Source: Clostridia bacterium
Lineage (GTDB): Bacteria; Bacillota_A; Clostridia; Christensenellales; Aristaeellaceae
Reading direction: 5' to 3'
Assembly (NCBI GenBank): GCA_017432405.1
Contig: JAFRJF010000284.1
Location: 1-21,172 of the forward strand
Length of the DNA: 21,172 nt
The notes under the pieces were generated by a model. That model was not told the origin of the DNA and searched no databases. It saw only the letters and a program-made list of their open reading frames with translations. Shown here piece after piece: positions 2,257 through 18,839 of this stretch; position 1 is the first letter of the stretch, and each line of letters starts with the position of its first letter. Made by a program: the position numbers and the translations under genes.

Positions 2257-3201
2257 ATGGATCTGTATAGCATTGGCGAGATGGTCATCGACTTCATTCC
2301 GGGCAGCGAGCCGGCCAGCTATATCCGAAAGGCGGGCGGCGCGCCGGCGAACGTGGCCATCGCCGTTTCAAAGAACGGGCTGGGCGCCTCGATGGCCTGC
2401 AAGGTGGGGGACGACGACTTTGGACGCTTCCTGATGGACACCCTGGCCGAGTACAACGTGAAGGCCGCCTGCCCCGAGCTCTGCAGGGAGGCCATCACCA
2501 CCATGGCCTTCGTGACCCTGGCCGAGGACGGCGAGCGCCGCTTTACCTTCGCCCGCAAGCCCGGCGCGGACATGCTGCTGAAGGAGGCGGAGGTGCTGGA
2601 GTCGGACATCGCCGACGCCGCCATCGTCCACGCCGGCTCTTGCTCGCTGTCGGCCCAGCCCGAGGCCGCCGCCACCGTGCGGGCGCTGCGCCTGGGGCAC
2701 GAGATGGGAAAGCTGGTCAGCTTTGACGTCAACTACCGCAACGTGATGTGGAACGACGACATCGACGCCTGCGCCCGGGCCGTGACGGATATCCTGAAAT
2801 ATGTGGACCTTTTGAAGATCTCCGAGGAGGAGGTCGACATGATCGGCGGCGAGGCCGCCATTCCCCAACTGATGAAGGACTATGGCATCGCCCTGGTGGT
2901 GCAGACCCTGGGCGCCAACGGCGTGCGGGCCTACTTCGGCGGCGATTACTTCGACGTGGCCGGCCGGAAGGTCAAGGCCGTAGACGCCACCGGCGCCGGC
3001 GACGCCTTCTGGGGCGCGTTCCTGGCGAAGCTGAGGATCTGCGGCGTGGAAAAGGCCGCCGACCTGACCGCCGGGATCGTCCGCGAGGCGCTGGAGTACG
3101 GCAACATCTCCGGCAGCATCTGCGTGCAGACCAAGGGCGCCATCGCCTCCATCCCCACCCGGATGCAGATCGAGGCCGTGATGCGGGAGGGCAAGGCATG
3201 A
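2257..3201 (+). CDS. PfkB-family sugar kinase (fructokinase-like)
   Basis: 314-residue cytoplasmic kinase of the ribokinase/PfkB family, which phosphorylates a sugar hydroxyl with ATP. Both family signatures are present: GGAPANVA at 27-34 (sugar-binding glycines) and DATGAGDAF at 243-251, with Asp249 as the catalytic base. The N-terminus (YSIGEMVIDFIPG) is like bacterial fructokinases. The ATG at 2257 follows GAGAGGAGC at suitable spacing. It is the first gene of the operon driven by the promoter at 2173-2201. Its stop overlaps the next start (ATGA at 3198-3201), indicating translational coupling to the epimerase. Fructose is the simplest substrate guess, because the downstream lyxose/mannose isomerase family could yield fructose, but specificity inside PfkB cannot be read reliably from sequence. 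Confidence 0.9.
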   Translation: MDLYSIGEMVIDFIPGSEPASYIRKAGGAPANVAIAVSKNGLGASMACKVGDDDFGRFLMDTLAEYNVKAACPELCREAITTMAFVTLAEDGERRFTFARKPGADMLLKEAEVLESDIADAAIVHAGSCSLSAQPEAAATVRALRLGHEMGKLVSFDVNYRNVMWNDDIDACARAVTDILKYVDLLKISEEEVDMIGGEAAIPQLMKDYGIALVVQTLGANGVRAYFGGDYFDVAGRKVKAVDATGAGDAFWGAFLAKLRICGVEKAADLTAGIVREALEYGNISGSICVQTKGAIASIPTRMQIEAVMREGKA

Positions 3202-3896
3202 GCGCGAATATCTGGAATGAGAAGTGCGTCATCTCCCCCTCCCTGATCTGCCTGGACATGTGCAACCTGGAGAGCCAGGCGAAGCTGCTGGAGCAGTGCG
3301 GCATACAACTGCTGCACGTGGACATACTGGACGGCCACTTCAGCCCCAGCATGCCCCTGGGCCTGGACGCCGTGCGCCAGCTGCGCTCGCGCACCAGCCT
3401 GACCTTTGACTGCCACCTGATGGTGACGGCCCAGGATTACTTCGTGGACGAGCTGCTGGACATCGGCGTGGACCAGATCGTGTTCCACGCGGAAACCCAG
3501 CCCCACATCGACGGCATGCTGAACCGCATCCACGCGAAGGGCGTGCGGGCCGGCGTGGCCCTGAAGCCCGCCACCCCCCTGTCCACGCTGGAATACGTGC
3601 TGGAGAAGTGCGACACGGTGCTGCTGATGCTGATCAATCCCGGCTACGCCTTCATGAAGGGCGAGCAGCAGGCGCCCTACGCCGACCGGAAGATCCGCGC
3701 CCTGCGGGAGATGATCGAGGCGCGGGGCCTGGACACGAAAATCGAGCTGGACGGCCGCGTCTCCCCAAAGAACATCGAGGACTGGGGCAACGGCGTCGCC
3801 GACATCTTCGTCACCGGCAGCACCTGCCTGAAGCGGGACGATCTGCCCGGCAGCTTCAAAAAGCTGGCGGAGCTGCGTGAGAACGTAGTGAAATAG
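3198..3896 (+). CDS. Ribulose-phosphate 3-epimerase family, AlsE-like
   Basis: 232-residue TIM-barrel epimerase that would invert C3 of a ketose phosphate. RPE-type catalytic and metal residues are visible: SPS at 13-15, His40 and Asp42 in HVDILDGHF, His73 in DCHLMV, and Asp185 in IELDGRV. The start motif (ISPSLICLDM) and ELDG motif resemble D-allulose-6-phosphate 3-epimerase AlsE more than housekeeping Rpe. The usual NPGF(G/A)GQ phosphate loop is replaced by NPGYAFMKGEQQ (147-158), which suggests an altered substrate pocket. The GTG-free start is the ATG overlapping the kinase stop. A 191-bp inverted-repeat element follows the stop directly. Being between a PfkB kinase and an HxlB-type isomerase, it probably acts on a hexulose 6-phosphate; this is inference. 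Confidence 0.85.
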   Translation: MSANIWNEKCVISPSLICLDMCNLESQAKLLEQCGIQLLHVDILDGHFSPSMPLGLDAVRQLRSRTSLTFDCHLMVTAQDYFVDELLDIGVDQIVFHAETQPHIDGMLNRIHAKGVRAGVALKPATPLSTLEYVLEKCDTVLLMLINPGYAFMKGEQQAPYADRKIRALREMIEARGLDTKIELDGRVSPKNIEDWGNGVADIFVTGSTCLKRDDLPGSFKKLAELRENVVK

Positions 3897-4087: not shown

Positions 4088-4107
4088 AAAAAACAGGAGG
4101 CTATGGA

Positions 4108-4680
4108 ATGACTTTTGCAGAGGAATACAGTAAGGCATGCAAGGACGTGACCGCGGAGCTGGAGCGGACGCTGGCCAGCGTGGACCCGGAACAGCTGATG
4201 CGGCTGCGGGACGAGATCTTCAAGGCCGACCAGGTGTTCTTCGTGGGCGTGGGCCGGGTGATGCTGGCCCTGCAGTGCGTGTGCAAGCGGCTGGCCCACC
4301 TGGGCATCAAGGCCCACTACGTGGGCGAGATCACCGAGCCCGCCATCAAGAAGGACGACCTGCTGATCGTGGGCTCCGGCTCCGGCGGGTCGCTGTTCCC
4401 GCTGGGCATCGCCAGGAAGGCCCGGGCCGCCGTGGACTGCACCATCGTGCACATCGGCTCCAACCCCAACAGCGAGATGAAGGACATCGCCGACTTCATG
4501 GTCCGCATCCCCGTGCGCACCAAGTTCTACCTGGAGGACGAGATCGACTCCTGCCAGCCCATGACCAGCCTGTTCGAGCAGAGCGTGCTGCTGCTGGGCG
4601 ACGTGCTGGCGAAGATGATCATCGAGGAAAAGCAGCTGGACATGAAGGGCCTGTGGCAGTATCACGCGAATCTGGAATAG
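4108..4680 (+). CDS. SIS-domain isomerase, 6-phospho-3-hexuloisomerase (HxlB) type
   Basis: 190-residue single SIS-domain protein. HxlB interconverts arabino-3-hexulose 6-phosphate and fructose 6-phosphate. The phosphate-binding GSGSGG is at 89-94, the glycine loop FFVGVGR at 44-50 (GAGRS in classical HxlB), the isomerase Glu region SLFEQ at 154-158, and the C-terminus LWQYHANLE almost equals the LWxxHANLE end of HxlB. Length is normal. ATG 4108 follows AGGAGG; an ATG six bases earlier opens only a three-codon frame (ATGGAATGA). The usual partner HxlA (hexulose-6-phosphate synthase) is absent; an RPE-type epimerase stands in its place. The substrate may therefore be a related hexulose phosphate made by a route other than formaldehyde fixation. 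Confidence 0.88.
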   Translation: MTFAEEYSKACKDVTAELERTLASVDPEQLMRLRDEIFKADQVFFVGVGRVMLALQCVCKRLAHLGIKAHYVGEITEPAIKKDDLLIVGSGSGGSLFPLGIARKARAAVDCTIVHIGSNPNSEMKDIADFMVRIPVRTKFYLEDEIDSCQPMTSLFEQSVLLLGDVLAKMIIEEKQLDMKGLWQYHANLE

Positions 4681-4700
4681 GCAACAGGAACAACGATCCC

Positions 4701-4724: not shown

Positions 4725-4742
4725 TGGAAATGAGGAAACATC

Positions 4743-5786
4743 ATGAACGATAAACGCGACCTGATGAAATACATGGGCTCCATGCAGCAGGCGGCGTACA
4801 TCCGCCCGCTGACCTACACCGAGGGCCGCAGCACCGGCCTGAAGGCCTACGAGGTCAAAAACGGCCCGCTGTGCTACAAGCTGATGGCCGACAAGTGCCT
4901 GGACATGTGCGAGCTGTCCTACAAGGGCGTGAACTTCAGCTTCCTGTCCAAGCCGGGGCTGCAGGGCCGCAACGCCTACGACACCGCCGGGGACGAGGCC
5001 ATCCGCGGCATCATGGGCGGCATGTTCTTCACCTGCGGCGTGGAAACCATCTGCGCCCCCTGCACCGTCGACGGCGTGGACTACCCGATGCACGGGCGCA
5101 TGCGCACCACCCCGGGCGAGCACCTGTCCGCCGACGCCTTCTGGGCGGAGGACGGCTACCACCTGCGGGCCAGCGCCGAGATGCGGGAGGCGGCCCTGTT
5201 CGGCGAGAACATGACCCTGCGCCGCAGCATCGAAACGGTGTACGGGCAGAAGACCGTCACCCTGACCGATGTGTTCGAGAACCAGGGCTACCGTGACGAG
5301 CCGCTGATGCTGCTGTACCACATCAACCTGGGCTGGCCCTTCCTGGATGAAAACCTGCGGCTGGTCCTGCCCACCCGGAAGGTCACCCCCCGGGACGCCG
5401 AGGCCGAGGGCCACGAGGGCGAATACGACCGCATGGACCCGCCGAAGGACAACGAGCCGGAATACGTGTTCATCCACGACCTGGCGCCGGACGCCGACGG
5501 CAGCCTGCGGGCCGTGGCCGTGAACGAGGCGCTGGGCCTGGGGCTTGAGATCGGCTGGAACGAGGCGAATCTGCCCTACTTCATGGAGTGGAAGTCCACC
5601 GCCTCCGGCGACTATGTGATCGGCCTGGAGCCCGCCAATTCCAGCGTGTACGGCCGGCCCTGGCACGAGGAACGGGACACCGTGCACCGCCTGGCCCCCT
5701 TCGCCACCGAGAAAAACGTGCTGACGTTCACGATACTGGACGGCCAGGACGAGATCAACCAAGCCATACAAAAAATCAAAAAGTGA
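4743..5786 (+). CDS. DUF4432 / aldose 1-epimerase-like protein
   Basis: 347-residue protein of the galactose-mutarotase-like beta-sandwich superfamily, DUF4432 branch. Supporting segments include MHGRMRTTPGEHLSAD (around 118-133), YHINLGWPFLDE (around 192-203) and GDYVIGLEPANSSVYGR (around 289-305), which match the superfamily's carbohydrate-site histidines and glutamate. Related enzymes equilibrate the anomers of free aldoses; the reaction of DUF4432 itself is not firmly known to me. No signal peptide, so it is cytoplasmic. ATG 4743 follows TGAGGAAACATC with a GAGG Shine-Dalgarno. It sits between the SIS isomerase and the lyxose isomerase family gene, so it likely delivers the anomer used by the isomerase. 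Its stop is 11 bases before the next ATG. Confidence 0.85.
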   Translation: MNDKRDLMKYMGSMQQAAYIRPLTYTEGRSTGLKAYEVKNGPLCYKLMADKCLDMCELSYKGVNFSFLSKPGLQGRNAYDTAGDEAIRGIMGGMFFTCGVETICAPCTVDGVDYPMHGRMRTTPGEHLSADAFWAEDGYHLRASAEMREAALFGENMTLRRSIETVYGQKTVTLTDVFENQGYRDEPLMLLYHINLGWPFLDENLRLVLPTRKVTPRDAEAEGHEGEYDRMDPPKDNEPEYVFIHDLAPDADGSLRAVAVNEALGLGLEIGWNEANLPYFMEWKSTASGDYVIGLEPANSSVYGRPWHEERDTVHRLAPFATEKNVLTFTILDGQDEINQAIQKIKK

Positions 5787-5797
5787 GGTAATGCCAC

Positions 5798-6484
5798 ATG
5801 AAACGCTCTGAAATCAACAAGTGCATCAAGGAGTTCGAGGGCCTGCTGAAGGAGCACCGCTTCGAGCTGCCGCCGTTCCTCAGCTTCACCCCCGAGGAGT
5901 GGCAGGAGAAGGGCCACGAGTACGACGAGATCCGCGACAACGCCCTGGGCTGGGACATCACCGACTACGGCGAGGGCCACTTTGAGACCAAGGGCCTGTA
6001 CCTGATCACCCTGCGCAACGGCAACGTGCACAACCCCAAGTACACCAAGACCTACGCCGAGAAGATCATGATGCTCAAGGAGGGCCAGGTCTCCCCCAAC
6101 CACTTCCACTGGCACAAGATGGAGGACATCATCAATCGCGGCGGCGGCAACCTGGTGTTCCGGCTGTGGAACGCCGACAAGGACGAGAAGGTGGACCGGG
6201 AGAGCCCCGTGAAGATCTTCTCCGACGGCAGGGAGTACACCGTGGCGGCGGGCTCCGACATCATCCTCAAGCCCGGCCAGAGCCTGAGCCTGTATCCCTA
6301 CTACTACCATGAGTTCACCATCCAGCCCGGCACCGGCTACGCCATCATCGGCGAGGTGTCCATGTGCAACGACGACAATACCGACAACTGCTTCGAGGAG
6401 GCCCAGGGCCGCTTCCCGACCATTGAGGAGGACGAGCCGGCCTATCGCCTGCTGTGCACCGAGTATCCCCCGGCCAAGGACTGA
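5798..6484 (+). CDS. D-lyxose isomerase family (cupin sugar isomerase)
   Basis: 228-residue cupin enzyme of the D-lyxose/D-mannose isomerase family (DUF1498), which converts an aldose (D-lyxose, D-mannose) into its ketose (D-xylulose, D-fructose). The four metal ligands of the cupin are visible as His102 and His104 in SPNHFHWHKMED, Glu109, and His171 in YYYHEFTI. The KGLYLITLRNG and HNPKYTKTYAEKIM segments are also family features. Length is typical for the short forms. It is the last gene of the operon and is followed at once by a terminator at 6497-6521. With the kinase first in the operon it allows a lyxose/mannose to ketose to ketose-phosphate route, but members with other aldose substrates exist, so the exact sugar is open. 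Confidence 0.9.
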   Translation: MKRSEINKCIKEFEGLLKEHRFELPPFLSFTPEEWQEKGHEYDEIRDNALGWDITDYGEGHFETKGLYLITLRNGNVHNPKYTKTYAEKIMMLKEGQVSPNHFHWHKMEDIINRGGGNLVFRLWNADKDEKVDRESPVKIFSDGREYTVAAGSDIILKPGQSLSLYPYYYHEFTIQPGTGYAIIGEVSMCNDDNTDNCFEEAQGRFPTIEEDEPAYRLLCTEYPPAKD

Positions 6485-6990: not shown

Positions 6991-7947
6991 ATGAAGAAAA
7001 TCGTCTCCATCCTGCTGGTTGCCATCATGGTACTGGCCATGGGCGCTGCTGTCGCCGAGGCCAAGGACGTCAAGGACCTGAAGCTGGGCTTCATCCTGGG
7101 TTCCCGTGAGCACGCCTTCTATCTGAAGATCGAAGAGGGCATCAACGCCGCCGCGGCCGACATGGGCTTCACCGCCATCGTCGACGAGAGCAACCTGGAA
7201 GGCGCCATCGCCACCCAGCGCATTGAGAACATGGTCACCGACGGCATGGACGCCATCTCCCTGGCCTGCAACGAGCCCGCTGCCTGCACCACCGCCATCG
7301 AAGAGGCGGACAAGGCCGGCGTGCCGATGTTCACCTTTGACTGCACCTCCTCCGAGACCGACGTCATCAAGTGCTTCGTGGGCACCGACAACTACCAGGG
7401 CGGCGTCGTCGGCGGCGAAGCCTGCATCGCGGTGCTGGACGAGCTGGGTCTGAAGGACGGCGCGACCGTGGGCATCATCGGCTATCCCGAGCCCCAGAGC
7501 TGCATCGACCGTGAGAACGGCTGGATGGAAGTCATGAACGCCAAGAAGGACGAGTACAACCTGAACATCGTCAACATCGGCAACTATCAGGGCGACGCCG
7601 GCAAGGCCCAGGAGCTCATGGAGGCTGCCCTGACCGCCAACCCCGAGATGGCCGTGATCTTCACCGTGGGCGATCCCGCCTGCATCGGCGCCCTGGCCGC
7701 CATCAAGACTGCCGGCGCTTCCACCAAGATGATCGGCTTTGACGCCAACCCCGAGGCCCACGAGGCCATTCTGGACCCCGAAGACGGCCAGATCTGGGTC
7801 GGCGACGTCGCCCAGGATCCCTATCAGATCGGCTATCAGATCGCCACTGAGATGGTCAAGTACCTGACCGAGGGCACCGTGGACGAGCAGACCATCCTGA
7901 TCGCTCCCTACCTGGTGGACGCCTCCAACGCCGTGAAGCCCGAATAA
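6991..7947 (+). CDS. Ribose-type sugar ABC transporter substrate-binding protein
   Basis: 318-residue exported binding protein of the periplasmic-binding-protein type 1 (Peripla_BP_4, RbsB/ChvE-like) family. Residues 1-24 are a signal peptide (MKK, hydrophobic core, AVAEA). The mature part starts with LKLGFILGSREHAFYLKIEEG and contains the family's ligand-region motifs DAISLACNEP (84-93 region), FTFDCTSS, VGTDNYQGG and GFDANPEA. Unlike most binding proteins of monoderm bacteria it has no lipobox cysteine, so it would be cleaved by signal peptidase I. ATG 6991 follows GAGAGGG. It heads an operon with ATPase and permease; the hairpin at 7992-8032 after it may keep its mRNA more abundant than that of the partners. 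The substrate is a monosaccharide, not determinable further. Confidence 0.93.
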   Translation: MKKIVSILLVAIMVLAMGAAVAEAKDVKDLKLGFILGSREHAFYLKIEEGINAAAADMGFTAIVDESNLEGAIATQRIENMVTDGMDAISLACNEPAACTTAIEEADKAGVPMFTFDCTSSETDVIKCFVGTDNYQGGVVGGEACIAVLDELGLKDGATVGIIGYPEPQSCIDRENGWMEVMNAKKDEYNLNIVNIGNYQGDAGKAQELMEAALTANPEMAVIFTVGDPACIGALAAIKTAGASTKMIGFDANPEAHEAILDPEDGQIWVGDVAQDPYQIGYQIATEMVKYLTEGTVDEQTILIAPYLVDASNAVKPE

Positions 7948-8074: not shown

Positions 8075-9577
8075 GTGACGGATGTGCAGCCCTGCTTGCA
8101 GGCAATTCATATTACAAAGATCTTTCCGGGCGTCAGGGCCCTGTCAGATGTTTCGGTGGATTTCTACCCCGGCGAGGTGCACGCCCTGATGGGCGAGAAC
8201 GGCGCCGGAAAATCCACCCTGATCAAGATCCTCTCCGGCGTCTATACCGCCACGGAGGGCGAAATCCGCCTCGACGGACAGAAGATTGAATTCAAGGGCC
8301 CCAGGGACGCCATGGACAAGGGCATCTCGGTCATCCACCAGGAGCTGTCCATCGCCAAGGACCTGACTGTGGCCCAGAACATCTTCCTGGGCGAGGAAAA
8401 AACCAACGGCATGTTCCTGGACAACCGCAGCATGAACGCGCGGGCGCTGGAGCTACTGAAGCAGATGAAGATGGATGCCATCATCAAGCCCACCGACGTG
8501 GCCGGCAACCTGACCGCCGCGCAGCAGCAGATGGTGGAGATCGCCCGCGTGATCAACAAAAACGCCCGGGTGGTCATCATGGACGAGCCCACTTCATCGC
8601 TGTCGGACCACGAGATCGACGCCCTGTTCGAGCAGATCCGCATCCTGCGGGACAAGGGCGTGGCCATCGCCTATATCAGCCACCGCATGAAGGAGATCTT
8701 CGAGATCTGCGACCGCTCCACGGTGCTGCGTGACGGCTGCTTTGTGCGCACCGACCTGATCAAGGACATCACCGAGCACGACCTGGTGGCCAGCATGGTC
8801 GGCCGCGAGCTGGACAACTACTTCGTCCATACCACGCACCACCGGGGCGAGGAGACCCTGCGCGTGGAGGGCCTCACCCACGGCCGCGAGTTCAAAAACG
8901 TGTCCTTCACCGCCTACAGGGGCGAGATCCTGGGCATCGCGGGCCTGGTGGGCGCGGGCCGCACCGAGACGATGGAAACCATCTTCGGCGCGCGCCACGC
9001 CGACAGCGGCAAGGTGTTCGTCAACGGCAAGGAGGTCCACTTCAACAGCCCCAAGGACGCCATCGCCCACAAGATCGGCATGGTCACCGAGGACCGGCGC
9101 ACCACGGGCCTGATGCTGAAGGCCATGATCAAGGACAACGAGGTGCTGCCCAGCCTGATCTACCACATGAAGGGCATGGGCTTCGCCGACCAGAAGTGGA
9201 TCGACAAGGTCAGCAAGGAATACGTGGGCAAGCTCAGCGTCAAGACGCCCAGCGTGGAGACCATCATCGGCAACCTGTCCGGCGGCAACCAGCAAAAGGT
9301 GGTCCTGGCCAAGTGGCTGATCGCCGAGAGCCAGATCCTGATCCTGGACGAGCCCACCCGCGGCATCGACGTCAACGCCAAGTCCGAGTTCTATACGCTG
9401 ATGAACGACTTCGTGGACCAGGGCGGCACCATCGTCATGGTGTCCTCGGAGCTGCCGGAGGTGCTGGGCGTCAGCGACCGCATCATCGTGATGTGCGAGG
9501 GCAAGGTGACCGGCGAGCTGAGCCGCGAGGAAGCCACTGAGCAGAAGATCATGTACCTGGCCAGCCAGGTGGATTGA
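8075..9577 (+). CDS. Sugar ABC transporter ATP-binding protein (RbsA/MglA type)
   Basis: 500-residue protein with two fused nucleotide-binding domains, energising import of the sugar. Domain 1: Walker A GENGAGKST at 40-48, signature NLTAAQQQ at 145-152, Walker B VVIMDEPTSS at 166-175. Domain 2: a degenerate Walker A GLVGAGRTE at 290-298, normal for RbsA/MglA, signature LSGGNQQ at 401-407 and Walker B ILILDEPTRGID at 421-432. Start choice: GTG 8075 gives the listed length, but AAAGGGG abuts it. The in-frame GTG 8084, eight bases downstream of that Shine-Dalgarno, may be the real start and removes three residues. It follows the binding protein and precedes the permease in one operon. Confidence 0.94.
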   Translation: MTDVQPCLQAIHITKIFPGVRALSDVSVDFYPGEVHALMGENGAGKSTLIKILSGVYTATEGEIRLDGQKIEFKGPRDAMDKGISVIHQELSIAKDLTVAQNIFLGEEKTNGMFLDNRSMNARALELLKQMKMDAIIKPTDVAGNLTAAQQQMVEIARVINKNARVVIMDEPTSSLSDHEIDALFEQIRILRDKGVAIAYISHRMKEIFEICDRSTVLRDGCFVRTDLIKDITEHDLVASMVGRELDNYFVHTTHHRGEETLRVEGLTHGREFKNVSFTAYRGEILGIAGLVGAGRTETMETIFGARHADSGKVFVNGKEVHFNSPKDAIAHKIGMVTEDRRTTGLMLKAMIKDNEVLPSLIYHMKGMGFADQKWIDKVSKEYVGKLSVKTPSVETIIGNLSGGNQQKVVLAKWLIAESQILILDEPTRGIDVNAKSEFYTLMNDFVDQGGTIVMVSSELPEVLGVSDRIIVMCEGKVTGELSREEATEQKIMYLASQVD

Positions 9578-9619: not shown

Positions 9620-10627
9620 ATGGCAGAAAAGAGCATGCAGAAGGGCTTCAATGCCAAGGAATTCCTGATGAAAAACATGGTGGTCGTGATCCTGATCGCC
9701 CTGATCCTTGGCTTTGGCCTGGGTACCGGCGGCAAGTTCTTCACCGCCAACAACCTGGTGAACCTGACCACCCAGATGGCCATCAACGCCATGCTGTCCG
9801 CGGGCCTGACCTACGTCATCATACTGGGCGGCATCGATATCTCCGTCGGCTCGGTAGGCGCGCTGGCCGGCGTCATCTCCACGCTGATCGCCGCGCGGAT
9901 CCCCGGCCTGTCCCGGCTGGGCTCCATCCCGATCCTGATCATCCCCGCCATCGTGGTGGGCCTGGTATGCGGTGGCTTTAACGGATTTATGATCAGCCGG
10001 ATGAACGTGGTGCCCATGATCGCGACCCTGGCCATGCAGACCATCGGCCGCGGCCTGTGCTTCATCTTCTCCGGCGGCACCGCCGTTTCCGGCATCCCGA
10101 AGACCTACGGCTTCGTCGGCGCGGGCCGCTGGCTGGCCACCGAGGGCAACCCCAACGGCTGGATCCCCAATATCACGATATTCGTCATCATCATGGTGGC
10201 CATCGTGCACATCCTGCTGTCGAAGACCGTCTTCGGCCGCCATGTGTACGCCACCGGCTCCAACCAGCAGGTCGCCCACCTGGCCGGCGTCAACACCAAG
10301 AACGTGGTGTTCCTGGGCCATGTGATCTGCGCAGTCATGGCGGCCCTGGCGGGCGTGCTGAACGCCTCCAAGCTGAACAGCGGCCAGCCCGCGGCCCTGG
10401 ACGGCTACGAGATGTACGCCATCGCCGCGACGGTCCTGGGCGGCACGTCCCTGACGGGCGGCAGCGGCTCCGTCGGCCGCGCCATGTTCGGCGTGGCGGT
10501 CATCGCCGTCATCAACAACGGCATGAACCTGATGCACATCGACTCCTACTGGCAGAAGGTCGTCATCGGCGCGATCATCCTCTTCGCCGTCATCCTGGAC
10601 ATGGCGCAGAAGAAGCGGAAGAACTGA
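9620..10627 (+). CDS. Sugar ABC transporter permease (RbsC type)
   Basis: 335-residue integral membrane protein of the BPD_transp_2 family, the channel subunit of the ribose-type importer. Eight to ten hydrophobic segments are evident (for example VVVILIALILGFGLG, IPILIIPAIVVGLVCGG, ITIFVIIMVAIVHILL). Family motifs: GGIDISVGSV (around 71-80), GRHVYATGSNQQVAHLAGV (around 206-224) and the ATPase-coupling loop ATVLGGTSLTGGSGS (around 272-286). ATG 9620 has AGAGAGGTG upstream. It is 42 bases after the ATPase gene and 39 before the DhaK-like gene, so one transcript is expected. Complete. Confidence 0.94.
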   Translation: MAEKSMQKGFNAKEFLMKNMVVVILIALILGFGLGTGGKFFTANNLVNLTTQMAINAMLSAGLTYVIILGGIDISVGSVGALAGVISTLIAARIPGLSRLGSIPILIIPAIVVGLVCGGFNGFMISRMNVVPMIATLAMQTIGRGLCFIFSGGTAVSGIPKTYGFVGAGRWLATEGNPNGWIPNITIFVIIMVAIVHILLSKTVFGRHVYATGSNQQVAHLAGVNTKNVVFLGHVICAVMAALAGVLNASKLNSGQPAALDGYEMYAIAATVLGGTSLTGGSGSVGRAMFGVAVIAVINNGMNLMHIDSYWQKVVIGAIILFAVILDMAQKKRKN

Positions 10628-10666: not shown

Positions 10667-11629
10667 ATGCATTGGTTTGGCGAAACGAGAGACAACTACT
10701 GCCCCGCCTGGTTTGACGCCATGGCGCAGGCATTCCCCGAGCGTTGGCGCGCGATGAAGGGCAGCGAGCCCAGCGCGGTGCTGCTCAAGCGCACGCCAAC
10801 GCCCGAAAGGGTGGCCGTCATCATCAGCGGCGGCGGCTCCAACGGCCCGTTCATCCCCGGCTTCGTGGGCGAGGGACTGGCCGATGCGGCGGTCGTCGGG
10901 CCGCCCTACACCGCCCCCAGCGCCTACGCCCTGTACGAGGCCGGCAAGGCGATCGGCGGGGAGAAGGGCGTGCTGCTGCTGTACAACAACTTCATGGGCG
11001 ACTACCTGAACAACGACATGGCCGACGAGCTGCTTCGGCTGGACGGCTACAGGGTGGCGCAGGTGCTGTGCTGCGACGACATGGGCACGGCCATCGGCGA
11101 ATCCCGGGAAAACCGGGGCGGCCGCATCGCCATCGCCTACCTGATCAGGATCGCCGCCCGGGCCGCCGCTGAAGGCAAATCCCTGGACGAGGTGGCAGGT
11201 CTTTTGCGCAAGGCCGAGGCGCGCACCAGCACCCTCTGCGTGTCCGTGGACCCGCTGGACGACCGGGTGACCTTCGGCAAGGGCATCTCCGACGAGCCCG
11301 GCTTCAAGACCCTTGAAAAGGCCACCGTGGCCGGCGCGGCCGAGGAGACCGTCCGCCTGCTGGTGGAGGACGTGAAGCCCCGGCCCGGCGAGAAGGTGCA
11401 CATGCTGGTGAACCGGCTGCGGCTGACCAGCTACTCCGACAGCTTCGTGATGGCCGGATACCTGAACGACGCCCTGAAGCGGCGCTGCGACGCGGCGCAG
11501 ATGCGGGTGGGCGGCTACATGCAGGTCACCGATACCTATGGCTACACGGTCACGCTGCTGTGTGCCGACGACGAAATCGCCCCCTATCTGGCGGGTGAGC
11601 CCACCTGCGGCGACGGCTTCCTGCTGTAG
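10667..11629 (+). CDS. Divergent DhaK-family protein lacking both active-site histidines
   Basis: 320-residue homologue of the dihydroxyacetone-kinase substrate-binding subunit DhaK. Alignment by eye: SGGGSNGPFIPGFVGEG (54-70) equals SGGGSGHEPxHxGYVG, YNNFMGD (106-112) equals KNYTGD with Asp112 kept, and FGKGISDEPG (203-212) equals xGxGIHGEPG. Thus the histidine that covalently holds dihydroxyacetone (His218 of E. coli DhaK) is Ser208 here, and the His56 site is also lost. The fold should be intact but the substrate chemistry must differ. The protein may bind another ketose non-covalently and be phosphorylated through the DhaL-like partner encoded at 12619. ATG 10667 follows GAGGTGA. The stop TAG is the TAG inside the first unit of a tandem repeat. 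Confidence 0.85.
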   Translation: MHWFGETRDNYCPAWFDAMAQAFPERWRAMKGSEPSAVLLKRTPTPERVAVIISGGGSNGPFIPGFVGEGLADAAVVGPPYTAPSAYALYEAGKAIGGEKGVLLLYNNFMGDYLNNDMADELLRLDGYRVAQVLCCDDMGTAIGESRENRGGRIAIAYLIRIAARAAAEGKSLDEVAGLLRKAEARTSTLCVSVDPLDDRVTFGKGISDEPGFKTLEKATVAGAAEETVRLLVEDVKPRPGEKVHMLVNRLRLTSYSDSFVMAGYLNDALKRRCDAAQMRVGGYMQVTDTYGYTVTLLCADDEIAPYLAGEPTCGDGFLL

Positions 11630-11766
11630 CGGCGGCAACCTGCCGCCACGGGCCCCGAGTCATTGTAGCGGCGGCAACCTGCCGCCACGGACTCCGAGCC
11701 GTTGTAGCGGCGGCAACCTGCCGCCACGGGCTCCGAGCCATTGTAGCGGCGGCAACCTGCCGCCAC
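11625..11766 (+). repeat. Four tandem REP-like hairpins, 39-bp period
   Basis: Four copies of a 25-base unit, TGTAGCGGCGGCAACCTGCC then GCCAC, at 11625-11649, 11664-11688, 11703-11727 and 11742-11766, identical to each other and separated by 14-base spacers that differ at only a few positions (GGGCCCCGAGTCAT, GGACTCCGAGCCGT, GGGCTCCGAGCCAT). Each unit can form a GGCGGCA/TGCCGCC stem. The array lies between the DhaK-like gene and the regulator gene and may reduce or stabilise downstream expression. Single copies occur at 4701-4724 and, inverted, 3981-4005. Confidence 0.92.
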
Positions 11767-11814
11767 GGTCGCTGCGGTATGTCTGACGGCAACGCTGTGG
11801 ATTGGAGGCGCGCC

Positions 11815-12603
11815 ATGTTACCCAATGAGCGGCTGAAGCGCATCTGCGACCTGGTGAACGAAAAGGGCTCGGTGCGGGTGACGGAGCTGAGCCGGCTGCT
11901 GAACGTCAGCGAGGTCACCGTGCGCCGGGACCTGGAGCTCCTGGCCCGGGATAACCGGCTGCAGCGCACCCACGGCGGCGCGTTTTCCGTCCAGCCCGTG
12001 GGCGACGAGATCACCGCGCCGGAGCTGATCCGCAGCCATCGCAACGTGGCGGAGAAGCGACTGATCGCCCAGGCCGCCTACGACATGATCAACGACAGGG
12101 ATACCCTCTTCATGGACGGCTCCTCCACGGTGAACGAGCTGGCGAAGCTCATCGCCCGCGAGGACCGCAAGCGCCTGTACGTCATCACCCCCTCGCTGAG
12201 CACGGTATCGGCGCTGGCCGACTGCGCCAGCGTATCGGTCATCATGGTGGGGGGCGAGGTCAACTACCGCATGGGGCACGTGGAGGGCACCCTGGCCGTG
12301 GAATCCATTCGCAACATGCGTGCGGACAAGTGCTTCATCGGCATCAACGGCATCGACCAGTCCTTCGGCTTTTCGTTCCCAAGGCTGATCGAGATCGACC
12401 TGAAGTGCGGCATGATGCAGGCTTCGCGCCGATCCATCGTGCTGGCCGACCACACCAAGTTCGGCAGGGTCTACATGGCCCGGCTCAACCGGGACTGCGA
12501 CGACGTGGTCACCGATACCCGCATGCGGGACTACGATTACGGGTGGCTGACGGAGCGCTGCACCGTGCACTTTGCGGACGAGCGAGAACAACGGATGAAT
12601 TAA
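11815..12603 (+). CDS. DeoR-family transcriptional regulator
   Basis: 262-residue regulator. The N-terminal winged helix-turn-helix spans residues 5-55 (LKRICDLVNEKGSVRVTELS, then VSEVTVRRDLELL and RTHGGAF, the classical DeoR signature). Residues ~75-240 form the DeoRC sugar-phosphate-sensing domain (MDGSSTVNELAKL, KCFIGINGID, VLADHTKFGR). Such proteins usually repress sugar operons and release DNA on binding a phosphorylated intermediate. ATG 11815 is preferred because GGAGG lies 7 bases upstream; an ATG at 11779 in the same frame lacks a site and lies just after the repeat array. It is located inside the operon, between the DhaK- and DhaL-like genes, so it most likely controls the promoter at 6791-6819. 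Confidence 0.93.
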   Translation: MLPNERLKRICDLVNEKGSVRVTELSRLLNVSEVTVRRDLELLARDNRLQRTHGGAFSVQPVGDEITAPELIRSHRNVAEKRLIAQAAYDMINDRDTLFMDGSSTVNELAKLIAREDRKRLYVITPSLSTVSALADCASVSVIMVGGEVNYRMGHVEGTLAVESIRNMRADKCFIGINGIDQSFGFSFPRLIEIDLKCGMMQASRRSIVLADHTKFGRVYMARLNRDCDDVVTDTRMRDYDYGWLTERCTVHFADEREQRMN

Positions 12604-12618
12604 GGAGTGAACCGACGG

Positions 12619-13254
12619 ATGAACAGGGCCGATATTTCCGCGCTGAAGCGCGCGATGATCACCGCGGCGGACGACATCGTGGCCGCAGAGCCGGAGCTGA
12701 CCCGCATCGACATGGTCATCGGCGACGGCGACCACGGCATCGGCATGAAGACGGGATTCACCGCCCTGAAGCGCGAATTGCTGGCCAATGATTACGAATC
12801 GCCCTACGCGCTGTTCCATGCCTGTGGGCTTTGCCTGGTCAAGAGCATGGGCGGGTCGTCCGGCGTGCTGTTCGGCACGCTGTTGATCGGCGGCCTGGAG
12901 GCCATTCGCGGCCTGGACAGCCTGGACGGCACCGAGATGTGCGCCTTCCTGGGGGGCGGCATCGACGCGGTGATCCGCCGGGGCAAGGCCAAGCCCGGTT
13001 ATAAGACCATGGTGGACGCGCTGCTGCCCGCAAAGGCCCACATGGAGCAGATGCTTCGGGACACCACCGCCGTCGGCCCCATCATGCGGGCCGCGGAGGC
13101 CGGGGCGCTGGGCGGCGTCGAGGCCACCAAGAGCATGCTGCCCCGGCTGGGTAGGTCAAAGAACTTCAGGGAAAACGCCATCGGCTGGCCGGACCCCGGC
13201 GCGATCTCCGTGTCGGTGCTGTTCGGCGGCATGGCAAAGGAACTATCTAAATAA
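12619..13254 (+). CDS. DhaL-family kinase subunit
   Basis: 211-residue homologue of DhaL, the nucleotide-binding subunit of dihydroxyacetone kinases. The Mg/ADP triad is intact: Asp31, Asp36 and Asp38 in RIDMVIGDGDHGIGM. MGGSSGVLFGT corresponds to the GG(A/T)SGxLYGT nucleotide loop, PGYKTMVDAL to the PGDKTMxDAL segment, and WPDPGAISV to the HPDPGAxS tail. No phosphocarrier DhaM gene is nearby, so it probably uses ATP directly. Start: ATG 12619 follows AAGGAG (12602-12607); a GTG at 12607 in frame has no Shine-Dalgarno. Together with the divergent DhaK at 10667 it should form a two-subunit kinase, although the regulator gene is inserted between them. Confidence 0.9.
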   Translation: MNRADISALKRAMITAADDIVAAEPELTRIDMVIGDGDHGIGMKTGFTALKRELLANDYESPYALFHACGLCLVKSMGGSSGVLFGTLLIGGLEAIRGLDSLDGTEMCAFLGGGIDAVIRRGKAKPGYKTMVDALLPAKAHMEQMLRDTTAVGPIMRAAEAGALGGVEATKSMLPRLGRSKNFRENAIGWPDPGAISVSVLFGGMAKELSK

Positions 13255-13298
13255 AAGGACGTCCGCATCGCGGCGTCAGATATTAGGAGGAATGTACC

Positions 13299-14138
13299 AT
13301 GGCACTGGCAAGAGTCAGCGAAATCCTGAAAATGGCAGACAAGGCCAATACTTCCGTCATCGCTTTCAACAGCTCCGACTACAACATGATCCACTCGGTG
13401 TTCACCATCGCGGAGGAGCTGAACAAGCCCGCGCTGGTGATGCTGGACCCCCGTCACGCGGTGCTGTGGGGCTGGGGCAACCCCGAGATCTACGCCCAGA
13501 TCGCCATCGAAGAGGCCAGGAAGGTGAAGGTGCCCGTCAGCTTCCACCTGGATCACTGCATGGATTTTGACCTGATCATGCGCTGCATCAAGGCCGGCTT
13601 CCCGTCGGTCATGTACGACGGCTCCATGCTCAGCTATGCCGAGAACGTGAAGAACACCGCCGAGGTGGCCAAGGTCGCCCACGCCATGGGCGTCGACGTC
13701 GAGGCCGAGCTGGGCCACGTGGGCTTCGCCGTGACGGAGACCGACCAGGACGACCTGGACCTGTACACCAAGGTGGACGTGGCTGCCCGCTTCTGCGAGG
13801 AGAGTCACTGCGATTCCCTGGCCATCGCCATCGGCACGGCCCACGGCTTCTACAAGAAGACCCCGAAGCTGGACCTGCAGCGCCTGCAGGACATCAACGC
13901 CGCCACCGATACGCCCTTGGTGCTGCACGGCGGCAGCGGCGTGCCCGACGACCAGCTGGAGAAGGCCTTCACGATGGGCATCAACAAGTTCAACGTGGGC
14001 ACCGAGTACTTCTACAACTACTACCAGACCATGAAGGCCTATTGCCAGGAGCACGAGGACATCTTCGATCTCCAGACCACCGTTCAGGCTTCCCTGCAGG
14101 ACTATCTGCGCCAGAAGATGCAGCTGTGCAGGATGTAG
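13299..14138 (+). CDS. Class II (zinc) aldolase, fructose-bisphosphate aldolase family
   Basis: 279-residue TIM-barrel zinc aldolase that would cleave a phosphorylated ketose to dihydroxyacetone phosphate plus an aldehyde. Catalytic Asp85 and zinc His86 are in FHLDHCMDF, zinc His182 in GTAHGF, zinc His210 in LHGGSG, and the phosphate-site NVGTE is at 232-236. The loop after the second strand reads MLDPRHAVLWGW (48-59), whereas family members usually have a Q-x-S/T-x-G/S-A-x-x-Y/F pattern (compare QTTPSTIRY in the second aldolase of this window), so the substrate pocket differs. ATG 13299 follows AGGAGG. It is the last gene of the ABC/DhaK operon and most likely cleaves the product of the DhaK/DhaL-like kinase. 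Confidence 0.9.
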   Translation: MALARVSEILKMADKANTSVIAFNSSDYNMIHSVFTIAEELNKPALVMLDPRHAVLWGWGNPEIYAQIAIEEARKVKVPVSFHLDHCMDFDLIMRCIKAGFPSVMYDGSMLSYAENVKNTAEVAKVAHAMGVDVEAELGHVGFAVTETDQDDLDLYTKVDVAARFCEESHCDSLAIAIGTAHGFYKKTPKLDLQRLQDINAATDTPLVLHGGSGVPDDQLEKAFTMGINKFNVGTEYFYNYYQTMKAYCQEHEDIFDLQTTVQASLQDYLRQKMQLCRM

Positions 14139-15541: not shown

Positions 15542-16390
15542 TCACGCCTTGCCGTCGCAGCCGCAGACCTTCATGCGGCTCATCACCAGGTCCTTGACCG
15601 CGGCCATGCCGGCCTTGCAGAAGACCTTGGGGTCGAAGGCCTTGGGGTCCTCCTCGGCCAGCTTGCGGCAGGCGTCGGTGAAGGCCTTGCGCAGCTCGGT
15701 GGCGAAGTTGACCTTGCAGATGCCCCGGGCGACGCAGTCGCGCACGTCCTCGTCGGTCAGGCCGGAGGCCCCGTGCAGCACCAGGGGAATGTCCACCACC
15801 TTGCGGATCTCGCTGAGGCGCGCCTTGTCCAGCACGGGCGTGCCCACGTAGAAGCCGTGGGCCGTGCCGATGGCCACCGCCAGCGAGGTGACGCCGGTGC
15901 GCTCCACGAAGGCCTTCGCCTCCATGGGGTCGGTGTTGGTGTCAGCCACGGCCACCAGGTCGTCCTCCTTGCCGCCCACCTTGCCCAGCTCGGCCTCGCA
16001 GGGGATGCCCACCGCCGCGGCCACGTCGGCCACCCGGCGGCTGACGGCCACGTTCTCCTCAAAGGGCAGCTTGGAGCCGTCGATCATCACCGAAGTGTAC
16101 CCGGCGTTGATGGCCTGCACGGCCAGCTCGAAGCTGCTGCCGTGGTCCAGGTGCAGGCACACCGGCACGGTGGCGTGCTTTGCCTCCGCGGCCACCATGG
16201 CGGCGAACATGTCCAGGCTGGCATAGCGGATGGTGGAGGGGGTGGTTTGCAGCATCACCGGGGCCCGCAGCTCTTCGGCGGCTGCGATGATGGCCTTGAC
16301 CATCTCCATGTTTTCACAGTTGAACGCGCCCACGGCGTAGCCCCGCTTCTGGGCGTCCAGCAACATCTTTTCGGAAGTAACCAGCGGCAT
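15542..16390 (-). CDS. gatY: Class II aldolase, tagatose-bisphosphate aldolase (GatY/KbaY) type
   Basis: 282-residue zinc aldolase. Catalytic Asp82 and zinc His83 in LHLDHGSSFE, zinc His178 in GTAHGF, zinc His206 in LHGASG, and KVNFATELR (226-234) as in GatY/KbaY and FbaA. The substrate loop VMLQTTPSTIRYAS is canonical, unlike the aldolase at 13299. GatY-type enzymes split tagatose 1,6-bisphosphate into dihydroxyacetone phosphate and glyceraldehyde 3-phosphate and are helped by GatZ, encoded directly upstream. ATG 16390 follows AGGAGG located at the gatZ stop (12 bases between genes), so they are translated together. It is last in the pfkB-gatZ-gatY operon. Fructose 1,6-bisphosphate use is an alternative. 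Confidence 0.88.
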   Translation of the reverse strand: MPLVTSEKMLLDAQKRGYAVGAFNCENMEMVKAIIAAAEELRAPVMLQTTPSTIRYASLDMFAAMVAAEAKHATVPVCLHLDHGSSFELAVQAINAGYTSVMIDGSKLPFEENVAVSRRVADVAAAVGIPCEAELGKVGGKEDDLVAVADTNTDPMEAKAFVERTGVTSLAVAIGTAHGFYVGTPVLDKARLSEIRKVVDIPLVLHGASGLTDEDVRDCVARGICKVNFATELRKAFTDACRKLAEEDPKAFDPKVFCKAGMAAVKDLVMSRMKVCGCDGKA

Positions 16391-16400: not shown

Positions 16401-17693
16401 CTATCTCGTGGCGTACTCGTAGTCCTGCATGAACAGCATGATGCCGTAGAGCGCCAGGGCCCGGGGCGTCTTTTCGATCTCGCCGGCGCGGATGGCGTCG
16501 AACTGGCGGGGCATGTACTGGTGCAGCATGTTCATGGGAATGTCGTATTTCTCCAGGTTCCCGAACAGTTTGTCGATGGCGGCCTGCACCTCGGGAAGGT
16601 TGATGTAGTAGCGGGCGCGGTCGGAGAAGCTGTAGCGCCGGGCCAGACGGGTGGCCCTGTAATCGCCGTGGTAGTGCTTCTGCCAGTTGCCGGGCTGCTC
16701 CAGCATCACCCGCTCCAGCACCTCGGGGAACCAGGCCCGCGCCTCCGGTGGCACCAGCTCGGCCTCCATGTCGGACAGGGCGAACAGTGCCTCCCGCAGC
16801 CCGTAGGTCAGCGCGGGGCCGACCTTCAGGATCGCGATGCCGTCCTCCACCATCTGGCGCAGGCATTCGGCGGTCTGGTAGTCCGAGGAGTGGCCCTCGA
16901 ACACGATCTCGGGAGTGTCTTTCAGCGCGGCGCTGAGGGCGCGGGCGTTTTCCCGGTTGTACAGGAACACCTGGTCGTCGCCGAACTCCACGCCCGGCTG
17001 CACCACGATGGCGATCACGTCCCTCCAGCCGTCCGCGAGGCCCGCCTCGGCAAAGCAGCGCTTGTAGGTATCCACGGTGTCCCGGAAGGCCTCGGGCTTC
17101 GTGACGGCCAGGGAATCCTCCTCCTCCTGGGCGCCGCCGGGAATGGGCACCTCCGACCCGATGACGAACACCGGCCGCGGGGCGTCGGGCCTTTCCGCCT
17201 TCAGCGCGGCGTAGGCCTCCATGCAGGCCCGGTACAGCCGTATCCCTCGGCGGGCCACCACCTCGGTGGCCAGCGGGCCCTCGGGATCGTCCGCCAGCTT
17301 CATGCTGGTGTCCAGGTGGATCTTGGTGAAGCCGGCCCGGACGAACTGATAGACCAGCGTCTCGGCCTTCTCCATGGCCTCGGCCTCCGGCTCGTTCTGC
17401 CAGGTCAGGGGGCCCAGGTGGTCGCCAGCGAGGATCAGCTGGCGCTCCGGCACGCCGATCTTACCGGCCAGGTCCAGCACCAGCTTATAGAAGTCCGCCG
17501 GCAGCATGCCGGTGTAGCCGCCGAACTGGTTCACCTGGTTGGCGGTGGCCTCGATCAGCACCGGCTTGCCCAGCTGTTTGGCGCGGATCAGCGCCGCCTC
17601 CAGCGCCAGCTCGTTGGCCGTGCAGTAGGAGGGAATGCCGCATATTTCGCCGGCCCTGCGCCGGTCGATCATTTCCTGCAGGGGATGCTTCAC
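16401..17693 (-). CDS. gatZ: GatZ/KbaZ-type subunit of tagatose-bisphosphate aldolase
   Basis: 430-residue TIM-barrel protein close in size to E. coli KbaZ/GatZ (about 420-426). Diagnostic segments are GIPSYCTANELALEAAL near the start, EATANQVNQFGGYTGM, LAGDHLGPLTWQ, KIHLDTSM, FVIGSEVPIPGGAQEEE and FEGHSSDYQ. In E. coli this protein is not catalytic on its own but stabilises the class II aldolase GatY/KbaY. GTG 17693 is chosen because GAGGAGG lies 8 bases upstream and it overlaps the preceding kinase stop (GTGA), which implies translational coupling. The frame remains open upstream into the kinase but there it is only a shadow. Its position directly before gatY supports the pairing. Confidence 0.9.
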   Translation of the reverse strand: MKHPLQEMIDRRRAGEICGIPSYCTANELALEAALIRAKQLGKPVLIEATANQVNQFGGYTGMLPADFYKLVLDLAGKIGVPERQLILAGDHLGPLTWQNEPEAEAMEKAETLVYQFVRAGFTKIHLDTSMKLADDPEGPLATEVVARRGIRLYRACMEAYAALKAERPDAPRPVFVIGSEVPIPGGAQEEEDSLAVTKPEAFRDTVDTYKRCFAEAGLADGWRDVIAIVVQPGVEFGDDQVFLYNRENARALSAALKDTPEIVFEGHSSDYQTAECLRQMVEDGIAILKVGPALTYGLREALFALSDMEAELVPPEARAWFPEVLERVMLEQPGNWQKHYHGDYRATRLARRYSFSDRARYYINLPEVQAAIDKLFGNLEKYDIPMNMLHQYMPRQFDAIRAGEIEKTPRALALYGIMLFMQDYEYATR

Positions 17694-18652
17694 TTTGCCG
17701 CCTCCTCGTTGTCCGCGATCATCTTTTCCACGGTCGCCCGGGAGATGTTGCCTTCCATGGGTCCGAAGGCCGCCGCGTTCAGCGCGCCTGCCGCCGCGCC
17801 CATCTGCGCCGCGCCCTTCAGGGTTTTGCCCTCGGCCAGGCCGCAGATGAAGGCCGCGTCGTAGCTGTCGCCGGCGCCGGTGGCATCCAGCTGCTCCACC
17901 TTGTAGACGCCCATGGTCTCGGCCAGGCCGTTCCGGTCGTAGATCTTCGAGCCCTCGCTGCCGCTCTTCAGCACGATCAGCTCCAGCCCGGGGTTGTCGG
18001 CGAAGGCCTTCGCGATGGCCCTGTCCAGGTCCTCCTCGCCGGTGATCATGCGGATCTCGGAGCGCCCCGGCATGAAGATGCTGCAATTCAGGTAGGCCTC
18101 CCGCACCACGTCCATGGCCCTGGGGTCGCGGAGCATCTCCAGGCGCACGTTGGGGTCGAAGCTGACCTTCGCGCCGAGGCCCTTCAGCAGCCGCATGGTC
18201 TTCAGGATCTCCTGGCCGAAGGGGATGGAGGCCATCAGCGAGCAGCCCATGATGTGGAAGTATTTGCAGTCCTTCAGATCGTCGGCCATCTCCGGGGCCT
18301 TCGCCATCACCGCGGGGGTGTTGTTGATGTGGAAGATGAACTTGCGCTCGCCGTCGGCGAAGTAGGTCACAAAGGCCGCGCCGGTGGCGGCGGCATCGGA
18401 GACCAGCACCCGGCGGGTGTCCACGCCCACGGCGTTCAGGCGGTCCAGTATGTTCTTGCCGAAGTCGTCGTTGCCCACGCCGGAGATGATGCCGGTGCCG
18501 TGGCCCAGCCGGGCCGCGGTGCTGGCAAAGATGCCCGGCGCGCCGCTGGGGAAGGGTCCCCTGAAGGTTTCGCCGGTCTCAAACAGCTGAACATCCTCCC
18601 GGGCGCGCATGATTTCCACCAACAGCTCGCCCATGATCAAGATTTCCGCCAT
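17690..18652 (-). CDS. PfkB-family sugar kinase, with gatZY
   Basis: 320-residue kinase of the ribokinase/PfkB family. Sugar-site motif GPFPSGAPGIFASTAARLG at 32-50 is a variant of GGAPxNVAxxLARLG. The catalytic motif DATGAGDSY is at 256-264 with Asp262, and FDPNVRLEML (the DxNxR segment) is present. Context with GatZ and GatY makes tagatose-6-phosphate or another ketohexose phosphate the likely substrate, giving the bisphosphate cleaved by the aldolase; a 2-keto-3-deoxygluconate-kinase-like activity is an alternative from the sequence style. ATG 18652 is chosen for its GAAAGGGG site; the frame is open 30 codons further but that part lies in a repeat element. First gene of a three-gene operon. 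Confidence 0.88.
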   Translation of the reverse strand: MAEILIMGELLVEIMRAREDVQLFETGETFRGPFPSGAPGIFASTAARLGHGTGIISGVGNDDFGKNILDRLNAVGVDTRRVLVSDAAATGAAFVTYFADGERKFIFHINNTPAVMAKAPEMADDLKDCKYFHIMGCSLMASIPFGQEILKTMRLLKGLGAKVSFDPNVRLEMLRDPRAMDVVREAYLNCSIFMPGRSEIRMITGEEDLDRAIAKAFADNPGLELIVLKSGSEGSKIYDRNGLAETMGVYKVEQLDATGAGDSYDAAFICGLAEGKTLKGAAQMGAAAGALNAAAFGPMEGNISRATVEKMIADNEEAAK

Positions 18653-18679
18653 ATGCTCGTTTCCCCTTTCTGTTTGGAT

Positions 18680-18839
18680 GGGTACCTCTAAAAACGAACG
18701 CGTCGCCCGACGAGATGAATTGTAGACAGATTTGGCTTGCAAAAGACGCAGGCTGCCTGGCGGGCAGTCAAGGTTTTGGCAAGACGAGGATGGCTGTTAT
18801 TCAGCCGTCCGGCGGCGATGCGCGTTTTTAGAGGTGCCC
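18680..18839. mobile_element. 160-bp MITE-like element with 17-bp terminal inverted repeats
   Basis: Ends GGGTACCTCTAAAAACG (18680-18696) and CGTTTTTAGAGGTGCCC (18823-18839) are inverted repeats matching at 16 of 17 positions. Inside are hairpins CTGCC/GGCAG (around 18752-18766) and GGCTGTTATTCAGCC (18792-18806). No ORF. It lies between pfkA and the PfkB gene, 10 bases after the pfkA stop and just before the PfkB Shine-Dalgarno, so it must carry or disrupt the promoter of the pfkB-gatZY operon. A TACAAT at about 18719-18724 (minus strand) is a possible -10 without a good -35. No transposase in the window. Confidence 0.7.

Follow-up and report, generated by a model that had tools for sequence, protein, structure and literature searches.

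The locus

The 21,172-nucleotide contig JAFRJF010000284.1 from a Clostridia bacterium (assembly GCA_017432405.1), referred to here in its whole length as the window, carries on its forward strand an operon in which a DhaK/DhaL kinase pair stands together with a sugar ATP-binding cassette (ABC) importer, a DeoR-family regulator and a class II aldolase. The novel part is the DhaK homologue, a member of the dihydroxyacetone kinase family that fails the residues defining those kinases and probably phosphorylates a larger ketose. The genome closest for comparison, termed G001, shares 68% of the sequence words of the window and is 93% complete. Several of the closest loci come, by their titles, from ruminant gut samples (sheep and roe deer rumen, goat and yak duodenum), and the host of the window is probably a gut bacterium. 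Open reading frame coordinates bear out the gene boundaries, from DhaK to aldolase at 10667-14138, that had been given in an earlier model-made reading of the DNA (the sequence-only reading). The operon genes are as follows.

6991..7947, + strand: RbsB-like sugar-binding protein (SBP) of the importer (profile match)
8075..9577, + strand: presumed sugar ABC ATPase, named from sequence and gene order without a family search; also beside DhaK in relatives
9620..10627, + strand: presumed sugar ABC permease, named in the same way; also beside DhaK in relatives
10667..11629, + strand: DhaK homologue, S type, without His56 and His218 (Pfam, alignment, AlphaFold2 model, Foldseek)
11779..12603, + strand: DeoR-family regulator (profile match)
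12607..13254, + strand: DhaL (Dak2), the nucleotide-binding partner, with a GTG start (profiles, alignment)
13299..14138, + strand: class II aldolase of the fructose-bisphosphate aldolase (FBA) type, a putative ketose-1-phosphate aldolase (profiles, alignment)

A DhaK homologue without the substrate histidines

The window DhaK belongs to the Dak1 family (PF02733, 173.1 bits against a cut-off of 31.4) and reaches neither the DhaK equivalog TIGR02363 (150.8 against 406.25) nor the DhaQ equivalog TIGR02362 (84.9 against 413.25). Its AlphaFold2 (AF2) model has a confident DhaK fold (pLDDT 91.5, pTM 0.92). Compared by Foldseek score, it gives template modelling (TM) scores of about 0.8 with DhaK structures. 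The best Protein Data Bank matches by E-value are Lactococcus lactis DhaK and Escherichia coli DhaK, its H56N and H56A mutants among them; by TM score, DhaQ chains rank first (2iu6_A, 0.87).

Alignment with solved DhaK chains and with the DhaK of E. coli MG1655 places Ser208 on E. coli His218 (GKGISDEPG on GVGIHGEPG) and Asn59/Gly60 at His56 (GGGSNGPFI on GGSGHEPMH). The sequence-only reading had claimed just this, that Ser208 replaces the dihydroxyacetone-binding histidine and GGGSNGP the GGGSGHEP motif of the second one; its further claim, that the GD pair at 111-112 is kept, also holds, as G111-D112 lies on E. coli Gly108-Asp109. The protein has two histidines in all, H2 and H245. By sequence alignment no histidine has been relocated to an equivalent site, and in the 152 aligned S rows histidine does not exceed 50% in any column. 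In G001, the S-type DhaK is the only Dak1 protein found.

According to PMC6429413, covalent capture of dihydroxyacetone, by a hemiaminal to its ketone, is a hallmark of dihydroxyacetone kinases. On its residues, the window protein fails the definition of such a kinase and should not be filed as one. It may share the working mode of these enzymes, with DhaL-bound ATP and Asp109.

The partner DhaL matches Dak2 (150.4 against 27) and scores at the cut-off of TIGR02365 (138.3 against 138.3). Aligned with E. coli, it keeps D35, D40 and D42, and the three Mg-binding aspartates ascribed to it earlier are indeed all present. DhaM (TIGR02364), the mark of a phosphotransferase system (PTS)-type DhaKLM, was not found in five of six genomes searched, namely G001 (93% complete), G518, G495, G356 and G412; in the sixth, G177, it adjoins the canonical DhaK. 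Because of this distribution ATP is likely to be the phosphate donor, rather than phosphoenolpyruvate.

The PTS-dependent DhaK-DhaL systems of E. coli and L. lactis thus share with the window pair the Dak1 and Dak2 domains, the fold (TM about 0.8), Asp109 and the DhaL aspartate triad. The window pair differs from them in lacking both histidines and 13 loop residues, in the aldolase and importer alongside, and in that no DhaM was found in G001. With the ATP-dependent dihydroxyacetone kinases of Citrobacter and human (TKFC) it shares the K and L modules and ATP as the likely donor, whereas K and L are separate subunits in the window and the covalent-capture residues His220/His221 of those enzymes, as given in PMC6429413, are gone.

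Clades of histidine-less relatives

Homologues were collected with the window DhaK and with a DhaK from genome G356 that has asparagine at both histidine sites. In all of the best 120 of 401 homologues of the window protein, serine stands at position 218 (E. coli numbering) and aspartate at 109; the serine is therefore neither a chance change nor a lone mutation. These sequences form the S type. Among the best 120 of 509 homologues of the G356 protein, Asn218 occurs in 96 (with Asn56 in 90, Leu in 5 and Met in 1) and both histidines in 24. The two histidine-less types differ in a loop. The span of E. coli residues 186-218 measures 19 residues in 147 of 152 S rows, 13 fewer than the 32 found in 71 of 71 histidine-bearing (H) rows, whereas the N rows, with asparagine, keep the loop (31-32 residues in 99 of 99).

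Of 398 genomes sampled from the phylum, 74 gave a match to the window DhaK (E up to 0.001), and 30 loci fetched from these hold 31 DhaK frames: 29 have His218 (among them a fragment that lacks the His56 region), one is the S-type protein of G001 and one is the asparagine protein of G356. The distribution is patchy even close by, with a strong match (E up to 1e-45) in three of 150 genomes of the family of G001. The few S and N proteins with source names go under dihydroxyacetone kinase, dihydroxyacetone kinase subunit DhaK or a "-like" form of these. Literature searches by title and opening of abstract, each limited to at most 25 of up to 241 papers and mostly without subscription journals, gave no description of DhaK relatives without the histidines.

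A quick unrooted tree of 119 rows puts the S, N and H proteins each on one side of a branch, with SH-aLRT (approximate likelihood ratio test) supports of 100, 98 and 93. The listed S proteins were sampled for it at one in 12 and the N and H proteins at one in 4; only S rows longer than 300 residues were used, and L017 (a long branch) and L001 (which duplicates the window) were excluded. As an unrooted tree it is compatible with a single and with a repeated loss of the histidines.

Gene neighbourhoods

Genes within 6 kb of DhaK were counted in 31 S loci, three N loci and 39 stand-alone canonical genes. The S loci come from one scan with the DhaK alignment alone, and L001 (99%, nearly the locus of the window itself) is among them. 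The canonical set, chosen by coordinates only with neighbours unseen, comprises 37 genes from 35 of 40 stretches and two more from L074 and L075; the five stretches left out are four duplicates (L112, L129, L135, L136) and the N-type L126. For a few of the 39 genes (L125, L130, L131) the sequence on one side is shorter than 6 kb.

A class II FBA-type aldolase gene lies within this distance in 27 of 31 S loci, in all three N loci and in 2 of 39 canonical ones. For S and N together (30/34 against 2/39), Fisher's test gives p of about 1e-13, a value made too small by the relatedness of the loci; the contrast is plain despite it. The aldolase accompanies the histidine-less kinase in Bacillota and in Synergistota. 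Three of the four S loci without it (L012, L018, L025) end within 1 kb downstream. The fourth is L017, where the S-type DhaK adjoins a divergent importer set.

The other S neighbours are DhaL (28/31), ABC ATPase and permease (24/31 each), SBP (22/31), DeoR (15/31) and PfkB (11/31). All eight genes of the set (DeoR, DhaK, DhaL, PfkB, aldolase, SBP, ABC ATPase and permease) are present in the three N loci. Near the 39 canonical genes, which have no S neighbour, DhaL was counted 33 times, ABC 12 times and PfkB twice. The expectation that the histidine-less clade would sit with DhaL and the aldolase is thus largely borne out, while constant company of ribose-type ABC genes is not. Of the seven S loci that gave no ABC match, six have 6 kb of upstream sequence, so the gene is mostly truly absent there. 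An SBP_bac_1-type binding protein lies near L020 and L029, and the latter has another type of importer (SBP_bac_1, BPD_transp) with FGGY, ROK and AraD-type genes. S loci also occur in named isolates, Muricomes intestini (L019), Schaedlerella arabinosiphila and Blautia schinkii.

In seven S loci (L009, L020-L024, L027), the S-type pair stands side by side with a canonical, histidine-bearing DhaKL, with one aldolase. Because the two adjoin, they probably do different jobs. PfkB is absent from the 6 kb around each of these canonical genes, two of which have less than 3 kb downstream. The canonical partner has GDGDLG in DhaL instead of GDxDHG and GHLP in DhaK instead of GHEP. As a separate observation, a 174-amino-acid gene product beside the canonical DhaK in L074 was considered as RpiB-like; it has weak NCBIfam matches to ureidoglycolate lyase only, and the reading was dropped.

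Aldolases and PfkB kinases

The window aldolase (13299..14138) is of the class II FBA type (PF01116, 271 against 25.5; TIGR00167, 224.8 against 215.6), and no bisphosphate-aldolase equivalog reaches its cut-off with it. The S-operon aldolases keep HLDH, GxAHG, LHGGSG (MHGGSG in L009) and N[VI]GTE, recognised from aligned FbaA, GatY and KbaY, and the window enzyme retains the residues recognised in this way as metal, catalytic and dihydroxyacetone phosphate (DHAP)-phosphate motifs. The DPR/DPK motif is absent from 27 of 27 (26 relatives and the window), the window having FDLQ with Gln in the Arg column. This motif corresponds to FbaA Arg331, which we take to bind the distal phosphate. The window enzyme also has a 3-residue insert in another loop, at FbaA Ser61. 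The sequence-only reading had called this aldolase odd, a description that fits the missing motif and the insert and does not fit the active site. The S-operon aldolase looks suited to a ketose 1-phosphate, which for the window enzyme would probably carry no distal phosphate.

DPK is kept in the second aldolase of the window (15542..16390) and in three N-operon aldolases. Of the three N-operon PfkB kinases two were tested, and both pass the 1-phosphofructokinase (1-PFK) subfamily TIGR03168 (295.0 and 292.8 against 216.4), and the N-operon aldolase of L068, the only one tested, passes the GatY subfamily NF009374 (387.3 against 383). The second PfkB of the window (17690..18742) and the PfkB of L014 have tagatose kinase as best match, far under the cut-off (249.4 and 264.4 against 420).

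Proposed function

It is proposed, with moderate confidence, that DhaK and DhaL form an ATP-dependent kinase for the 1-hydroxyl of a ketose brought in by the importer, probably a ketohexose, feeding an aldolase that yields DHAP. DhaL would carry Mg-ATP and DhaK hold the sugar, the phosphorylated hydroxyl being that next to the carbonyl or hemiketal carbon. The class II aldolase would then cleave the ketose 1-phosphate to DHAP and an aldehyde. In relatives the second triose might be handled by the canonical DhaKL next door, acting as triokinase, or by a PfkB kinase.

Ring closure is impossible for dihydroxyacetone and the tetruloses, and in canonical DhaK the residue that captures the dihydroxyacetone ketone is His218. 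Ketoses of at least five carbons are mostly cyclic; it is suggested that for this reason the histidine pair would be dispensable and covalent capture of the carbonyl not needed. The shorter loop of the S clade would let the pocket take a larger sugar.

The N operons would run from ketohexose to 1-phosphate, to 1,6-bisphosphate and to two trioses. Their 1-PFK-type kinase and bisphosphate-type aldolase need a ketohexose 1-phosphate, for which no operon gene other than DhaKL is a candidate source. This gene set and the S-operon aldolase together point to the histidine-less DhaKL as a ketose 1-kinase. The D-tagatose 1-phosphate route of Bacillus licheniformis, as outlined in PMC10101011, consists of a PTS, a tagatose-1-phosphate kinase and GatY. 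The N operons would perform the same chemistry, from 1-phosphate to 1,6-bisphosphate to GatY-type cleavage, whereas an ABC importer and DhaKL would replace the PTS as source of the 1-phosphate. The S version would resemble mammalian fructose breakdown, and in the tandem loci a DhaK-family kinase may serve at both kinase steps. E. coli YdjH/YdjI likewise combine a kinase with a class II aldolase that lacks the DPR motif and are annotated for a ketose 1-phosphate; YdjH, however, is a PfkB-type kinase, and the kinase here is DhaKL.

The sequence-only reading had outlined an import, phosphorylation and cleavage pathway for a ketose other than dihydroxyacetone. Aldolase co-occurrence and the N-clade operons lend this comparative support; the naming of the sugar stays a proposal. 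Solved relatives of the window binding protein and of the PfkB at 2257..3201 fix no sugar.

Several observations weigh against a ketose 1-kinase. In 10 of the 27 S-operon aldolases the five residues preceding the conserved VQ include a lysine or arginine (an eleventh found by the script, in L015, was a wrong match), so that these ten may bind a distal phosphate and direct cleavage of a 1-phosphate is less likely there. The window has no second DhaKL that could phosphorylate its second triose. Only three N loci were seen; the two PfkBs that pass TIGR03168 fall just below the 1-phosphofructokinase equivalog (288.6 and 289.4 against 292), and the L068 aldolase falls below stricter tagatose/fructose bisphosphate models (for example, 353.7 against 443.55). 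A conserved histidine three residues before Asp109 (E. coli Tyr106), present in 98% of the N clade, could partly replace the lost histidines there. The tree tool flagged a meeting of long branches where S splits from all other rows. The divergent S-type DhaK of L017 (6926-7993) has full flanks and neither DhaL nor aldolase within 6 kb, and two canonical loci also have an aldolase. Finally, an arginine specific to the S clade, Arg252, could mean an anionic substrate.

Alternative explanations

This last point belongs to a reading that we consider unlikely and still worth weighing, in which the kinase acts on an anionic ketose (an ulosonate- or uronate-type or phosphorylated sugar), Arg252 binds the charge and the aldolase cleaves an acid-tailed ketose 1-phosphate. 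Arginine is found at 252 in 91% of S rows, against glycine in 99% of H rows. The aldolase lacks DPR/K as does YdjI, YdjH/YdjI are annotated in MG1655 for octuluronate, and in some loci PfkB could phosphorylate first. The N clade, however, has glycine at 252 with similar neighbours; that Arg252 faces the pocket is conjecture; and the best NCBIfam match of the SBP is the ribose protein RbsB (92.4, far under the cut-off of 337), which leans to a neutral sugar.

The kinase might instead be a triokinase, phosphorylating glyceraldehyde or dihydroxyacetone released by the aldolase without covalent capture. It usually travels with an aldolase, and human TKFC, a fellow family member, accepts either triose according to PMC6429413. 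A second triokinase would be redundant, though, in the seven loci with an adjoining canonical, histidine-bearing DhaKL. N operons, with a bisphosphate-type aldolase and 1-PFK-type kinase, leave no free triose and yet need a first kinase, and a triose substrate would not require the loss of both histidines and the loop. This is quite improbable.

Much the same credit is given to a pentulose or a branched or deoxy ketose as substrate, from which glycolaldehyde or lactaldehyde would arise and no kinase be needed for the aldehyde. The aldolase without DPR/K would suit it, and a gene of the lyxose isomerase family, named for a pentose reaction, is present in the window as well as in L004 and L015, and L016 has it in pieces; FGGY kinase genes lie near L019 and L029, the latter with an AraD-type aldolase. 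Against these stand the tandem canonical DhaKL in 7 of 31 S loci and PfkB in 11 of 31, which suggest that a second phosphorylation is common, and the bisphosphate-type neighbours of the N clade.

That the S-type DhaK is a non-enzymatic sugar sensor or coactivator like Lactococcus DhaQ, a DhaK paralogue whose chains top the Foldseek TM list, is very improbable, given DhaL with its aspartate triad near it in 28 of 31 S loci, Asp109 in all of the best 120 of 401 homologues, its place as sole Dak1 protein found in G001, and a TIGR02362 score far from the cut-off.

Other features of the window

The remaining genes form a first set on the + strand and a diverging set on the − strand.

2257..3201, + strand: PfkB kinase, fructokinase-like (profile matches; joined to the DhaK operon in a single run in L015)
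3198..3896, + strand: ribulose-phosphate/allulose-phosphate 3-epimerase-like protein (profile matches)
4108..4680, + strand: SIS-domain protein, 6-phospho-3-hexuloisomerase-like (HxlB-like; TIGR03127, 162.3, cut-off 160)
4743..5786, + strand: DUF4432 protein (Pfam profile match)
5798..6484, + strand: D-lyxose isomerase family protein (PF07385)
15542..16390, − strand: second class II aldolase, best matched by GatY (368.1 against a cut-off of 383), in the diverging operon; DPK kept
16401..17699, − strand: presumed KbaZ/GatZ-like protein, extent approximate, named without a family search
17690..18742, − strand: PfkB kinase, tagatose-kinase-like (NF049991, 249.4, below the cut-off of 420)

The − strand set (GatY-like aldolase, KbaZ-like protein, tagatose-kinase-like PfkB) also includes what is presumably a PFK-like gene. 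In L015 both + strand halves of the window form a single co-directional run, so the two halves are capable of standing as one unit; the flanks fetched for most of the other loci did not show the first half. The module of PfkB, epimerase-like, HxlB-like SIS, DUF4432 and lyxose isomerase genes (window 2257-6484) recurs near the DhaK operon in L015 (6205-10348) and L016 (3-4977), the L016 copy having the isomerase in pieces and DUF4432 on the opposite strand.

The region separating DhaK from DeoR (window 11625-11768) holds a 39-bp tandem array with four copies of a hairpin like those of repetitive extragenic palindromes (REP), GGCGGCAACCTGCCGCC; one further near-copy lies at 4706-4722. The array folds better than shuffled sequences (z -2.4). 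G001 has 104 copies with at most one mismatch, and a reversed control has 0. Three Y1-transposase matches (PF01797) were found in G001. The weakest (L149, E 4e-4, at C53 22681-22893) is flanked by hairpin copies at C53 22246-22522 and 23107-23210, as expected for a pair of REP and REP-associated tyrosine transposase (RAYT).

Significance

More tentatively than the function of the window pair itself, the S and N clades may be seen as a new class of ATP-dependent ketohexose 1-kinase without covalent carbonyl capture. With the importer they would give gut and rumen bacteria a ketose 1-phosphate pathway independent of the PTS, possibly in two versions, one (N) passing through the 1,6-bisphosphate to GatY-type cleavage and the other (S) cleaving the 1-phosphate directly, followed by a triokinase. 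The S loci in named isolates make this directly testable. If true, a set of gut and rumen bacterial genes is misnamed as dihydroxyacetone kinase, and there would be two natural ways of performing DhaK chemistry without the histidines, one with serine and loss of a loop, the other with asparagine and the loop kept.

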